A DNA stretch of 38,393 nucleotides from an uncultured Flavobacteriaceae bacterium. Lineage in GTDB: Bacteria; Bacteroidota; Bacteroidia; Flavobacteriales; Flavobacteriaceae. Of this stretch, positions 1 to 10,542 are shown piece by piece. The stretch's first letter is position 1, and each line of letters starts with the position of its first letter. Both the position numbers and the translations under genes were made by a program. Location of the stretch: NCBI GenBank assembly GCA_913020075.1, contig CAJWAE010000011.1, positions 1-38,393 of the forward strand. The letters are read 5' to 3'. Under the pieces are notes generated by a model, which was not told the DNA's origin, did not search any database, and saw only the letters and a program-made list of their open reading frames with translations.

Positions 1-132
1 TTTAATTTTTGCTTCTTCAGCACTATTTGCTGTTGAAACAACAAATTCATTGTCATTTAGATATTCTTTTACTAGTTCTCTGATTCTGTTGTCGTCATCA
101 ACTACTAAGATATGATATTTAATTTTTTCCAT
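1..132 (-). CDS. Response regulator, N-terminal receiver part (partial, runs off the window)
   Basis: Translating the minus strand from the ATG at 132 gives 44 residues beginning MEKIKYHILVVDDD and then NRIRELVKEYL. This is the start of a CheY-like receiver domain: a hydrophobic first strand followed by the acidic DDD cluster that binds Mg2+. The phosphorylated Asp and any output domain lie outside the window, so the class is not visible. The start overlaps the end of the MarR-like reading frame by 14 bases, so the two were made together. A MarR gene directly followed by an OmpR-type regulator is the petP-petR arrangement of alphaproteobacteria; calling this PetR-like is inference. The stretch is much more AT-rich than the window (about 26% GC over 1-480 by hand count) and probably does not come from the same organism as the rest. 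Confidence 0.75.
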   Translation of the reverse strand, partial: MEKIKYHILVVDDDNRIRELVKEYLNDNEFVVSTANSAEEAKIK

Positions 133-1177
133 TTATAATTTTATTTAACACTTCCTTAAATTTTATCACTGAGTCTGGTTCAGAATTTTTTAAAGCATCA
201 AATATTCTTTTTTTTTGAGACTCATATATTTTATCAAAAAAGATTTTACCTTCTTTATCTAAAAATAAATTTTTTTTTCTTGTGTCTTTTTCATCTTTTA
301 TTTGCTTTATCATTTTTGCTTTTATTAAGTCTCTCAACACCCGATTTAAACTTTGTTTGGTTATTTTAAGTTGAAACATTAGTTCACCAAGATTTGTACC
401 AGGATTTCTTTCAATTAGATTTAAAGCCCTTAAATGGGCAGGTCCAAATGAATTTTCGCTAAGTAATTTTTTAGGATCTGAAAAAATTTCTCTATAAGCA
501 TAATAAGCTCCTAGGCTATTCCAGTGAGTATCTGTGCGATAGTAAAGTTGCCCCTTATTTTTGTTTTTTATCAAACTGTGTCGCAAATCAAGAATATCAA
601 CATCTGAGTTATCTCTCATGAATTCAACAAATGTATCTACATAATTTTCCCCATATTTAGTAAACCTTGCCGGAAAATATTCAGGGTATATACTCTGCTT
701 ATTTGGAGCAATGACATACAAGTAATCGATCCCCCGCTCTGCTAATAAGGCTTGCTTTTTTTCAAGATAGTTTTTTATTTTTATTAAGTCATCAGAGGAA
801 AACCATTTGTAACCGCGGTAAGCGTCGAGCGTATTATATCGGTTTGCAAACAACCAATCCTCTTTCCCTATCATCACATCAGAACTTATTGAACCACCAA
901 AAACATGAAACCGGTAAAGTGCCAATGACCTGAGAAATAGTTTCCTAAGACCAAACTGATCATTAAAATACTTTTCATATTTATGAGTATAGCTTTTTAA
1001 TGTATATATATTTATTTCTGGAAATCCTGGAAACTTGGTTAAGACGCGCTTTTCTTCTATTGCAGGTAAATTGGGTTGAATTCTGGGGGAAATAGTTGCC
1101 AAGAGCGGAAGACATAGAAAGATACAAAATATGACTGCAGCAATATATTCGTGTCTATTTTTGGTATTTTCACTCAT
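119..1177 (-). CDS. Chimeric ORF: AlgJ/AlgX-type acetyltransferase N-terminus joined to a MarR-type regulator C-terminus
   Basis: 352-residue open frame of two unrelated halves. Residues 1-226 look like an AlgJ/AlgX/DltD-type SGNH-like periplasmic protein: an N-terminal membrane anchor (about 11-29), the segment MIGKEDWLF near 102-110, and the DTHWN motif at 216-220, which supplies the catalytic Asp and His in this family. The catalytic Ser, which lies roughly 95 residues further on in AlgX and AlgJ, is absent because the sequence changes character. Residues 233-352 are a winged-helix MarR-type domain (FGPAHLRAL at 243-251, KITKQSLNRVLRDLI at 271-285). It lacks the first helices, about 40 residues. 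The change occurs at AYREIF (227-232). A cytoplasmic DNA-binding domain behind a periplasmic one makes no topological sense. I read this as an artefactual join, not a real fusion protein. Its ATG is 3 bases after the stop of the AlgI-like frame, as in a native algI-algJ operon. Confidence 0.8.
   Translation of the reverse strand: MSENTKNRHEYIAAVIFCIFLCLPLLATISPRIQPNLPAIEEKRVLTKFPGFPEINIYTLKSYTHKYEKYFNDQFGLRKLFLRSLALYRFHVFGGSISSDVMIGKEDWLFANRYNTLDAYRGYKWFSSDDLIKIKNYLEKKQALLAERGIDYLYVIAPNKQSIYPEYFPARFTKYGENYVDTFVEFMRDNSDVDILDLRHSLIKNKNKGQLYYRTDTHWNSLGAYYAYREIFSDPKKLLSENSFGPAHLRALNLIERNPGTNLGELMFQLKITKQSLNRVLRDLIKAKMIKQIKDEKDTRKKNLFLDKEGKIFFDKIYESQKKRIFDALKNSEPDSVIKFKEVLNKIINGKN
480..500. other. 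Probable chimera junction 1 (algJ-like / marR-like)
   Basis: On the minus strand the codons for AYREIF (482-499) mark the point where AlgJ-like sequence ends and MarR-like sequence begins, with the reading frame kept. Both parent families plausibly carry a similar AYR-type peptide at this place, which would give a short stretch of shared nucleotides. GC content drops from about 35% (481-1680) to about 26% (1-480) across the point, by hand count. Confidence 0.65.
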
Positions 1178-1180
1178 AGA

Positions 1181-2776
1181 TTAAAACCTAAAGTAGATGA
1201 ATGGATTATAAGCTCCACCCGAGATAGAAATTACTGCCAATATACCTAAGAAACATAATGTATAACTTTTTATCGTATCAACCCATGCTTTTCTTAAAGG
1301 TAAAAACTTTGCTACTCCACTAACATTAAAAGAAAAAATACCCCCACAAATAAGAGTAAAGATTAGCTCCCTTGTTAAAAAATACCTGGCATCGTAGATT
1401 GGTACGAGATTAGTTTCTTTTAACATAAACATGTATTTATAAAAATAAATTGCCTGACTGAGATCATCCGCTCTAAAAAGAACCCATCCGACAATAACGA
1501 CCAGCAATACATAAAGGTGCTTGACAATATAGGGCATTCGCTTTAACACATCTCTTTTGAACTCTGTTCTTTCAATTGCTAAAAATAGGCCGTGATAACA
1601 CCCCCAGATAACAAATGGCCATGCCGCTCCGTGCCATAAACCCACAAGAGAAAAGACAACAAACAAATTTAAACTAGTTCTTAATTTTTTAAACCACATT
1701 AGCTGTGGGGAGAACACATTACATGTCATCATAGACCAATATGCCCACCAATAGGGTCCTGTAGCTCGATTTAAGAATGCATATTGTTCATACTCAACCC
1801 CAGAATACCAAGCAATAAATAACTCGGTAATGTAAGCTACTCCAACTATAGACCCAGTAATCATGATAACAATATTCATCAATTCTATATGTTGAACAGT
1901 AATATAATCTTCCAGATGAGATACTTTACGCATGATAATCAATAAAGTATTAACCATTGCAAATCCAGAAAAAACAGCTCCTGCAACAAAATAAGGTGGG
2001 AAAATAGTAGTGTGCCAGCCTGGAATTACAGAAGTTGCAAAATCAAAAGAAACTATAGTGTGAACTGAAAGTACTAAAGGAGTTGCTAATCCTGCCAAGA
2101 CTAAAGAAACTTCTTCAAACCGCTGCCAGTCTTTAGCACGGCCAGACCAACCAAAGCTCAATAAACTATAAATTTTCTTTTGAAATGGAAGAACTGCTCG
2201 ATCACGAATCATCGCGAAATCAGGCAATAATCCTGTCCACCAAAAAACTAATGAAACAGAAAGATAGGTTGAAATTGCAAATACGTCCCATAATAGAGGT
2301 GAGTTAAAGTTTACCCACAAAGAACCAAAACTATTTGGAATAGGTAGCACCCAATAAGCCAACCACGGTCTTCCCATGTGAATAATTGGAAACAATCCTG
2401 CTTGAATAACTGAGAAAATTGTCATAGCTTCAGCTGAACGATTAATCGCCATACGCCATTTTTGTCTAAATAAAAGAAGGACGGCTGAAATCAAAGTTCC
2501 GGCATGTCCAATTCCTACCCACCATACAAAGTTAGTAATATCCCATGCCCAACCCACAGTCTTGTTAAGTCCCCAGACTCCTATGCCTGTTGATATAGTA
2601 TAAACTATACAACCAACTCCCCATAAAAAGGCAGCAAGGGCTATTCCAAAGACAATCCACCATTCTTTACTAGCAATACCTTCTACAGGTGCAGCAACAT
2701 CTAATGTTACATCGTGATATGTCTTATCTCCTGTAACAAGGGGCTTTCTTATCGGTGCTTCGTAATGAGATGCCAT
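1181..2776 (-). CDS. actC: Chimeric ORF: alternative complex III subunit C (ActC, NrfD-like) joined to AlgI-type MBOAT C-terminus
   Basis: Residues 1-368 are a normal flavobacterial ActC, the NrfD/PsrC-like multi-spanning quinol-binding subunit of alternative complex III. Recognisable parts are the N-terminus MASHYEAPIRKPLV, WDITNFVWWVGIGHAGTLIS (about 79-98), FRQKWRMAINRSAEAMT, GLFPIIHMGRPWLAYWVLP and FNSPLLWDVFAIS. After WFKKLRTS (361-368) the expected ActC ending, with its last helices and the typical MWFERF segment, is missing. Residues 369-531 instead match the C-terminus of AlgI-type MBOAT O-acyltransferases: LNLFVVFSLVGLWHGAAW contains the conserved membrane His (H382), followed by WVLFRADDLSQAIYFY and a short hydrophobic end. 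The ActC half sits 17 bases downstream of actB, as expected. Such a fusion would lack part of the ActC core, so the join is very likely artefactual and neither half is complete. Confidence 0.85.
   Translation of the reverse strand: MASHYEAPIRKPLVTGDKTYHDVTLDVAAPVEGIASKEWWIVFGIALAAFLWGVGCIVYTISTGIGVWGLNKTVGWAWDITNFVWWVGIGHAGTLISAVLLLFRQKWRMAINRSAEAMTIFSVIQAGLFPIIHMGRPWLAYWVLPIPNSFGSLWVNFNSPLLWDVFAISTYLSVSLVFWWTGLLPDFAMIRDRAVLPFQKKIYSLLSFGWSGRAKDWQRFEEVSLVLAGLATPLVLSVHTIVSFDFATSVIPGWHTTIFPPYFVAGAVFSGFAMVNTLLIIMRKVSHLEDYITVQHIELMNIVIMITGSIVGVAYITELFIAWYSGVEYEQYAFLNRATGPYWWAYWSMMTCNVFSPQLMWFKKLRTSLNLFVVFSLVGLWHGAAWPFVIWGCYHGLFLAIERTEFKRDVLKRMPYIVKHLYVLLVVIVGWVLFRADDLSQAIYFYKYMFMLKETNLVPIYDARYFLTRELIFTLICGGIFSFNVSGVAKFLPLRKAWVDTIKSYTLCFLGILAVISISGGAYNPFIYFRF
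1667..1696. other. Probable chimera junction 2 (actC / algI-like)
   Basis: The minus-strand codons for WFKKLRTSL mark the switch from ActC to AlgI-like sequence, again in frame. KLRTS is compatible with both parents: ActC has a WF-K-LRTS segment here, and AlgI-type proteins have K-LRT-LNLF just before GLWHG. A few codons of shared nucleotides would explain both the position and the preserved frame. Confidence 0.7.
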
Positions 2777-7362: not shown

Positions 7363-7755
7363 ATGAAAAATAATTCTTGTAGACTCCTTTGTTTGCTAAT
7401 CTTATTCGGAACAATTGATTTTGTGCATTCGCAAGAAGGCATAATAAAAGTTAAACAAGACTTAAAGCTGGATAGTTTAATTCTTAAAAAAAATGAATTG
7501 GATAGGAATCGTTACTTAAATAATTATTTCACGCTTCAATTATATTATGGAAATTTAGATATGGCTGAAAAAGTTTTAAAAATATCTAATGAAAAATATC
7601 CACATATTAAAGTAGAATTAAGTTTTGAAACACCTAACTATAAAGTTCAAGCAGGCAGGTTTAAAAATAAAATAAAAGGATTAAAAACTTTAGACACACT
7701 AAAGAAATTTTTTCCATCTGCTTTCCTATTGAAGAGAAAAGGAAGTTTAAAGTAA
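7363..7755 (+). CDS. Small secreted SPOR-domain protein
   Basis: 130 residues. An N-terminal signal peptide ([16 protein letters not shown]) is followed by a charged linker and a C-terminal SPOR-like domain: [18 protein letters not shown] is the first strand and helix, and [18 protein letters not shown] carries the typical final V-Q-G-F strand. SPOR domains bind denuded peptidoglycan glycan strands, so a periplasmic, wall-associated role is likely. A GTG 36 bases upstream (7327) would add 12 residues before the signal peptide; the ATG at 7363 is preferred. Its last 9 bases overlap the end of infB, which is convergent. A SPOR gene between infB and the act operon is a common flavobacterial arrangement. 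The exact role is unknown. Confidence 0.8.
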
Positions 7756-10542
7756 TCTTTTAACGGCTACCTCTTGATAACACTCTAAAACATCCCCAAT
7801 AATAACATCATTGTAATTCTTTATCTGAAGTCCACAATCATAACCTTTAGCAACTTCCTTAGCATCATCCTTGAAACGTTTTAAAGATGATAATGTGCCC
7901 GTATGAATTACCACACCTTCTCGAATTATACGAATTCCGGAATTTCTGTAAATTTTTCCTGAAATAACCATAGAACCTGCAATGGTTCCAACTTTTGAGA
8001 TTTTATAAGTTTCACGTATTTCGGCAGTCCCCGTAATCTCTTCTCTCATTTCAGGTGAAAGCATTCCTTCCATGGCATCTTTGATGTCATTAATTGCATC
8101 ATAAATAATGGAGTAAGATCTAATATCAATCTCTTCTTTTTCAGCAACGGATCTCGCATTGCCCATCGGCCTTACATTAAATCCAATTATTATAGCATCA
8201 GAGGCAGAAGCTAAAAGAACATCTGATTCAGTGATTGCTCCAACTCCTTTGTGAATAATATTAATTTCAATTTCTTCGGTAGAAAGCTTTTGAAGTGAAT
8301 CTGTAATTGCTTCCACAGATCCATCTACATCTCCTTTAAGAATAATATTTAATTCCTTAAATTCTCCCAAAGCGATACGTCTTCCAATTTCGTCAAGCGT
8401 AATATGTCGCTGAGTACGAACACTTTGCTCTCTGATAAGCTGGGTTCGTTTTGCAGCAATTTGTTTTGCTTCGCGCTCATCTTCTAACACATGGAAAGTG
8501 TCGCCAGCTTGAGGAGCACCATCTAAACCTAGTATAGAAACTGGTGTAGCGGGTGGAGCTTCCCCCATGTGAACTCCACGTTCATTAAAAATATCTTTTA
8601 CTTTTCCGCTTTGTTTTCCTGCAAGAATGTAATCCCCTATTTTGAGAGTTCCATTTTGAATCAACACTGTCGAAACATAACCTCTTCCTTTGTCTAAAAA
8701 AGCCTCCACGACTGTACCTTTAGCCCTTCTAATTGGATTTGCTTTTAACTCTAAAAGCTCGGCTTCTAATAACACTTTTTCTAACAACTCCTTAACCCCT
8801 GTTCCTTTTAGGGCTGAAATATCTTGAGATTGAACTTTACCTCCCCAATCTTCTACCATCAAATTCATTCCAGCTAGGGCTTCTTTAATTTTTTCTGGGT
8901 TAGAATCTTGTTTGTCGATTTTGTTAATAGCAAAAATTATGGGCACACCTGCAGCTTGGGCATGACTGATTGCCTCTTTAGTCTGAGGCATAATATCATC
9001 ATCAGCAGCAACTACAATAATTGCAATGTCAGTAACTTGTGCACCTCTGGCTCTCATCGCTGTAAAAGCTTCGTGACCAGGTGTATCTAAAAAAGTGATT
9101 TTTTGGCCGTCCTCAAGGGTAACCCCATAAGCACCAATGTGCTGAGTTATACCTCCAGATTCTCCTGCTATTACATTTTCACTTCTTATATGATCAAGTA
9201 AAGAAGTTTTACCATGATCTACATGGCCCATAACAGTAACAATGGGAGCCCTTGACACCAAATCTTTCTCTTGATCCTCTTCTTCAATAATATTTTCTTC
9301 CTGCTCCGCCTTAACAAAGGAAACTTCAAAACCAAATTCATCGGCTACAATTGTTAAAGTCTCTGCGTCTAAACGTTGATTCATAGTAACCATTATACCC
9401 AGACTCATACAGGCAGATATAATTTCAGAAGAGGAAATATCCATCATGGTAGCAGTTTCACCTACAGTAATGAATTCAGTCACTTTGATCACTTTACTTT
9501 CAGCCTCAAGCTGCGCCATTTCTTCTTCAGATTTTTGACGATGCTTAACTCTTTTGTCTCTTCGGTTTTTAACTCCTCTAGATTTAGTTGATTTTCCTTG
9601 AAGTTTTTCAAGTGTTTCCCTAACCTTCTTTTGTACTTCTGCTTCTGTAGGTTCTTCTTTTTTAACTGGTTCCTGCCTAGGCTTTCGTTGATTGTCTTTT
9701 TTGAAATTTGAATTTCTTGCAGGTGGCCTAACATCTTTTGTGATGCGCTTACGCTTTTTCTTGCGCGCATCTTCAACAGTTTTTTCTTTCTTATTAACCT
9801 CTTCAAGGTTAATCGTTTGTCCAGTTTTTACTGGTCCTGAAAGTTTTTTATATTGAGTTTTAATTGTTTCATTTTCCTCAGAAGTTGAGTCGTTTTTGAC
9901 CAAAGGAACTTTATCCACAACTTTATTAAGATCTTCAACTATTTCTTCCTTGGGAGCTTCAACTATTTCTTCCTTGGGAGCTTCAACTATTTCTTCCTTG
10001 AGAGTTTCAACTATTTCTTCCTTGGGAGTTTCAACTATTTCTTCCTTGGGAGTTTCTACTGTTGTTTTCTTGAGAGTTTCTAATGTTGTTTCCTTGGGAG
10101 CAATTACATTAGGAACGGATTCAATTGTCTTTTTAGCTTCTTTTGCAGGGGACTTCTTCCTTAAAGAGTCTAAATCAATTTTACCTAATGTTTTAGGCTT
10201 TTCAATTGCAACTCGATTTGATTTTAACTCTTCTCGACTTAATTTTAAAGCTTCTCGCTTTGCTATTTGATCTTGACGTTCTTGTTCTTTTTGCTCTTGA
10301 ATCAAACGAAGTCCTTCTTTTTCTTTCCGCTTTTCCTCACTTATTTCGTGAGAAGCCACTTTTTTAGATTTATCTGTTTCAAACTCATCTAAAAGTATGC
10401 TATGTACTTCTTCAGTAATCTTAGCAGTGGGTCTTGCTTCAACATCAATTTCTTTTTGAGCTAAAAACTCAACAGCACGATCTAGAGAGATGTTTAATTC
10501 TCTTAGTACTTTGTTCAGTCGAATACTCGGTTGGTCAGCCAT
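7747..10542 (-). CDS. infB: Translation initiation factor IF-2
   Basis: 931 residues. GTPase that brings fMet-tRNA to the 30S subunit and promotes 70S joining. The N-terminal IF2N-like start ([21 protein letters not shown]) is followed by a long charged linker (about 55-345) containing an 8-residue tandem repeat. A second IF2N-like segment comes next, then the G domain: [10 protein letters not shown] (P-loop, near 438-445), DTPGHEAF (G3) and NKIDK (G4). Domains II, III and C2 complete it, with [10 protein letters not shown] and VGTIAGSMV visible. ATG at 10542. It is third in the rimP-nusA-infB operon, 47 bases after nusA. The linker is variable between species and not needed for catalysis. 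Confidence 0.98.
9937..10104 (-). repeat. In-frame 24-bp tandem repeat inside infB (KEEIVE units)
   Basis: Seven consecutive 24-base units; the five from 9937 to 10056 are nearly identical and the two from 10057 to 10104 have drifted. On the minus strand each good unit encodes an eight-residue block such as TPKEEIVE or APKEEIVE. The unit length is a multiple of three, so gain or loss of a unit keeps IF-2 in frame. There are no spacers. The repeat also makes a long antisense open frame that is not a gene. Confidence 0.95.

Follow-up and report, generated by a model that had tools for sequence, protein, structure and literature searches.

The first 2776 nucleotides of the contig studied here raise a question: do the two fused genes encoded there belong to any bacterium, or are they pieces of different genomes joined by error? 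The window (the whole stretch of DNA that was analysed) is the entire contig C11, 38,393 bp in length, of the Bacteroidota genome under study (G000; 1.70 Mb in 102 contigs, estimated to be 85.58% complete and 3.49% contaminated), whose gene content suggests a flavobacterium-like organism. The initial annotation had proposed that two successive ORFs at the contig start each join two unrelated families. Both ORFs exist, and Pfam domains agree with this reading (NrfD and an MBOAT tail in one, ALGX and MarR in the other). Along the minus strand, the order is ActC residues 1-368, the AlgI C-terminus, the AlgJ N-terminus, a PetP-like MarR gene and the start of a response regulator. We take ActC to be the NrfD-like subunit of alternative complex III; the act gene names used throughout are likewise our assumption. 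The features are as follows.

1181-2776, minus strand: fused ORF from the ORF list, ActC (Pfam NrfD) plus AlgI tail.
1673-2776, minus strand: actC, residues 1-368 only, native to the genome according to congener protein and DNA alignments.
1673-1681, minus strand: join 1 (ActC/AlgI), codons R-T-S, the overlap being about 9 nt and perhaps as long as about 15 nt.
1181-1681, minus strand: foreign AlgI-like MBOAT O-acyltransferase, C-terminal part only (PF03062 tail below the cut-off; distant AlgI matches).
119-1177, minus strand: fused ORF from the ORF list, AlgJ plus MarR (Pfam ALGX, then MarR).
485-1177, minus strand: foreign AlgJ/AlgX-like sequence, the N-terminal 231 residues (PF16822; operon order behind AlgI).
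485-505, minus strand: join 2 (AlgJ/MarR), 21 nt coding for YYAYREI, resembling AlgJ and a PetP-like MarR in one frame.
119-505, minus strand: PetP-like MarR regulator with its first residues replaced by AlgJ, foreign and alphaproteobacterial by protein and DNA identity.
1-132, minus strand: start of a response regulator gene (44 codons), from the same source as MarR (a PF00072 match of this fragment with E 8.9e-6, below the cut-off).

The shift in base composition proposed earlier for this contig end is also present: positions 1-500 have a GC content of 25.6%, and the windows that lie between 501 and 1750 have 33-35%. Further inside the contig lies a gene that we take to be IF-2-like (7747-10542, minus strand). 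Its N-terminal region contains KEEIVE-type repeats (window 9896-10270), which open a 124-aa antisense frame at the same positions; the frame appears ordinary.

The ActC part could be compared directly with genomes of the same genus. Using ORF 1181-2776 as the query, we found an ActC match in 18 of the 24 congeners at 92-95% amino acid identity; the remaining six, with completeness of 57-79%, gave none. In 17 congeners the match spans residues 1-382 (92-94% identity), and in G003, where ActC is cut at a contig end, it covers residues 84-382 (95%). Uncut congener frames are 462-476 residues long, yet in none of the 18 does the match go past residue 382 or run on into AlgI, and so the ActC-AlgI arrangement was not seen in an independent genome among the congeners having an ActC match. 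In G034, a genome of the same order, the match extends to residue 403, which from the sequences we read as probably due to chance. A DNA alignment of 19 loci places the break more precisely, as actC homology ends at position 1673, directly after the codons for KKLRTS, within the interval 1667-1696 that had been suggested for this join.

Where does the rest of actC reside? When the congener actC end and downstream genes were used as the query against the contigs of the genome under study, a match at 80% identity was found on C56 (11,042 bp). It begins at about ActC residue 425 and covers the actC tail together with the next two genes, actD and actE, and is followed by ORFs resembling actF and what are presumably cytochrome oxidase genes. 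The assembly therefore does contain the true continuation of the broken gene, on a different contig; only a stretch of about 56 codons (168 bp) is absent from both. The last 775 bases of C56 have no match to the congener. They contain one further feature, a core histone ORF (PF00125, E 4.5e-17), whose closest relatives in the PDB set are histone H3 proteins.

10557-10913 of C56 (L198), minus strand: histone H3-like gene (PF00125), within the foreign end.

Taken together, the actC continuation on C56 and the unmatched end of that contig mean that actC is divided between two contigs, each loose end of which bears unrelated DNA. This bears on the possibility that the contig start is the product of a true and very recent recombination, in which DNA from several sources was brought to actC through 9-21 nt of shared coding sequence. 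If true, one lineage of Bacteroidota would carry ActC-AlgI and AlgJ-MarR fusions, both in frame. In its favor, the fused frames are open, and horizontal transfer of surface-polysaccharide genes is common. However, actC resumes on another contig of the same genome, that contig has a different foreign end, and none of the 18 congeners has the fusion. We consider such recombination very improbable. We also considered whether C11 and C56 had undergone a reciprocal rearrangement, and rejected this because about 56 codons of ActC are missing from both contigs and the two foreign ends differ.

The second part of the contig end is the AlgI-AlgJ block. Scanned alone, the tail of ORF 1181-2776 matches MBOAT (PF03062) with E 1.7e-5 and 24.7 bits, against a curated cut-off of 27, and there is no further PF03062 match in the genome. 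Among the matches listed, the AlgI part is related to proteins of many bacteria at about 28-45% identity, with one at 57% over 85 residues; in the congeners G015, G021 and G024, its matches are all distant (29-34%). The inner halves of the two ORFs had been interpreted as adjacent genes of an algI-algJ operon, and the genomic data bear this out. A single match spans AlgI and AlgJ in at least 27 of the 395 genomes of the same class and also in G041, G089, G216, G493, G720 and G731, so that AlgI followed directly by AlgJ is an arrangement common to many genomes. The donor was sought among those 395 genomes, 385 of the class of G041, 369 of the class of G043, three of the order of G493 and eight chosen genomes. 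Over the whole block, no relative above 37% identity was present among the matches listed, the best having 36-37%. As for mobile elements, a match to AlgI by itself was present in 60 plasmid records, in each case below 60% identity. For the AlgJ-MarR fusion, the matches in plasmids and phages were partial and confined to one half, none of the records reaching 80% query coverage, and no relative was confirmed among viral contigs. A family search with PF14589 was uninformative, with no matches in the controls either.

The origin of the third part is much clearer. Of the 297 genomes of one alphaproteobacterial order, 257 have a match to ORF 119-1177. The matches listed for this order fall on the MarR half, most of them starting at residues 201-226, and the best reach 79-80% identity over 128 residues. 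The few that begin further upstream, some of them at residues 134-168, pass through stop codons. Of the best 25, 18 are free of stops (69-80% amino acid identity), and the other seven (54-62%) extend upstream through stops. No match listed covers both the AlgJ and the MarR halves entirely; several cross the join slightly (G042 to position 440 of the 521 in the query, G715 to 417). At the DNA level, each of the 30 fetched loci gives a single alignment to the window, starting at positions 1-58 and ending at 502-506, with 70-79% identity. Homology to alphaproteobacterial MarR therefore starts at 502-506, and AlgJ conservation stops at residue 231 (position 485), in good agreement with the second join as first placed (480-500). 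The MarR and response-regulator genes overlap by 14 nt (119-132), as they do in locus L167 (1495-1508), and the same gene order occurs in L167 and L171. In Sinorhizobium, genes for MarR, a response regulator and an ATP-binding protein follow in the same order without the overlap. The MarR/response-regulator piece of the window presumably comes from a petP-petR locus. Genomes of the donor order are 0.7-1.5 Mb in size and the 30 loci have 28-31% GC, which suggests a SAR11-like group.

Searching each piece separately, as had been advised, thus assigned native status to ActC and an alphaproteobacterial source to MarR and the response regulator, with AlgI-AlgJ left with relatives at 36-37% at best. 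The proposal of three sources holds, the MarR/response-regulator pair being the third and coming from another class. As judged by sequence comparison, parts of differing organisms stand on a single contig. The third part even retains the native gene overlap of that other class, a further point against recombination. Could the genome simply contain foreign contigs, each of them correct in itself? The estimated contamination of 3.49% would allow for binning errors. However, the foreign parts are joined within a gene to native sequence on the same contig, and the break in the middle of actC speaks against this explanation too, unless a real rearrangement took place. Binning contamination alone is hardly credible.

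We then turned to the joins themselves. The peptide at join 1 occurs in ActC as KKLRTSI; the corresponding AlgI region mostly reads RTY.N and rarely RTS.N. In 133 AlgI segments (some loci being present twice), the column frequencies are 0.73 for R, 0.62 for T and 0.02 for S, the S being normal in ActC and rare in AlgI. AlgI segments have a GNR motif ahead of RTY.NL, and in its place the window has ActC sequence. At join 2, the AlgJ pattern (79 segments) is conserved as far as residue 231, and the following well-conserved position, an L or I at residue 235, is lost. AlgJ here is of the type GAYYAY.EI, PetP-like proteins have YYAYRETF or FYAYRETF, and the window has YYAYREIF; locus L170 shares 19 identical nucleotides with the window at this point. 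Since the AlgI-AlgJ donor was not found in the sampled genomes, the exact overlaps are deduced from distant homologues, and these short similarities were presumably the overlaps actually used.

That both joins keep the reading frame could be read as a sign of selection. However, the join peptides share one frame in both parents, so the fused ORFs would be open without any selection. Shared in-frame sequence would force the kept frame just as well. On sequence grounds, the overlaps point to misjoining driven by overlap, either by the assembler or by template switching, and not to recombination.

Which of these two processes was at work is less clear-cut. Template switching during whole-genome or PCR amplification, as for a single-cell genome, may also make use of short shared stretches, and a histone H3-like gene among the foreign pieces is what stray DNA would give. 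Against it, both joins in the window have the same orientation, and chimeras from multiple displacement are mostly inverted. We regard an amplification chimera as an unlikely form of the artefact. Because the joins are direct-strand and located on short shared stretches, we favor an assembler misjoin: the assembler probably used the overlaps, with short k-mers and low coverage.

If contig ends of this genome were prone to such errors, other ends might be affected as well. We compared 74 ends (37 contigs) with 1.59 Mb of congener G004; as this genome totals about 1.9 Mb and its contigs C1-C10 sum to 1.79 Mb, the comparison covers part of it. A match of at least 300 bp was found for 49 of the 74 ends, of which 22 are clean to within 60 bp and 27 have an overhang. 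Four of the 49 (C11 start, C56 end, C4 start and C17 start) break within a congener ORF and have an unmatched outer part. A break was counted if at least 38 residues of the congener ORF lay on each side and its outer part had no match in the overhang; the limit of 38 residues is the value of C56 and was picked after the table was seen. C11 and C56 were known before this comparison, and the independent yield is therefore 2/45. Of the 27 overhangs, 23 were left uncounted: 16 had no congener ORF across the break, the C17 end and C56 start had a matching outer part, and the C3 end, C21 end, C57 end, C60 start and C61 end had only 17-36 residues on one side.

Both additional cases are apparently chimeric or foreign. 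The C4 start (L232, 1-2100) contains a formyltransferase-type ORF and ATP-grasp-like sequence, both of 40% GC. Its fused ORF combines an ATP-grasp-like start (PylC-like_N, below the cut-off) with an ABC protein of the genome under study (over the cut-off), presumably LptB, in frame at ITKFPMY. The C17 start (L244, 1-668) has a fragment of a sugar-nucleotide epimerase/dehydratase (42% GC) beside a truncated PIG-L family gene. The joins of C17 and C56, unlike that of C4, are not in-frame fusions.

The start of the window is almost certainly an artefact, a chimera of three sources. The initial annotation had likewise considered a chimera most likely, and this is supported by the actC continuation on C56, the lack of the fusion in 18 congeners, the MarR gene of another class and the similar defects at other contig ends. 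Very probably, the first 1.7 kb consist of pieces of two other bacteria misjoined to the Bacteroidota genome. The contig of this genome would have broken off within actC, and the broken end would have been extended, via a short overlap, with algI-algJ sequence from a second bacterium. A second short overlap would then have added the MarR/response-regulator locus of an alphaproteobacterium with a small genome, the third source. It is unlikely that real genes encode the two fusion proteins, which would have no function because they would be absent from any cell. There is no biological novelty in this contig end, which serves as a caution for the mining of fusion proteins. Misjoins at short shared peptides can yield long, in-frame and plausible fusion ORFs at the contig ends of draft genomes, and in surveys of gene fusion or horizontal transfer in such genomes the outermost 1-2 kb of a contig should be treated with suspicion where no reads span it.

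Each part of the contig end may be set beside a known system. The native actC corresponds to the act operon (alternative complex III) of Bacteroidota, with its tail, actD and actE on C56; unlike in that operon, the gene here is divided between two contigs, both of which lack about 168 bp of it. The AlgI-AlgJ block has the order and adjacency of the algI-algJ O-acetylation pair, yet only the AlgI C-terminus and the AlgJ N-terminus are present, and the sampled genomes hold no close relative. The MarR/response-regulator piece agrees with alphaproteobacterial petP-petR in gene order, in the 14-nt overlap shared with L167 and in DNA identity (70-79%), and differs in having the first MarR residues replaced by AlgJ. 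As to the whole, misassembly into chimeric contigs is treated in the GUNC paper (PMC8201837) as a known, relatively rare error of MAGs. The contig start resembles the cases described there in that fragments of several sources are wrongly joined in one contig; it differs in that its foreign pieces lie at the contig end and give rise to in-frame fused ORFs.
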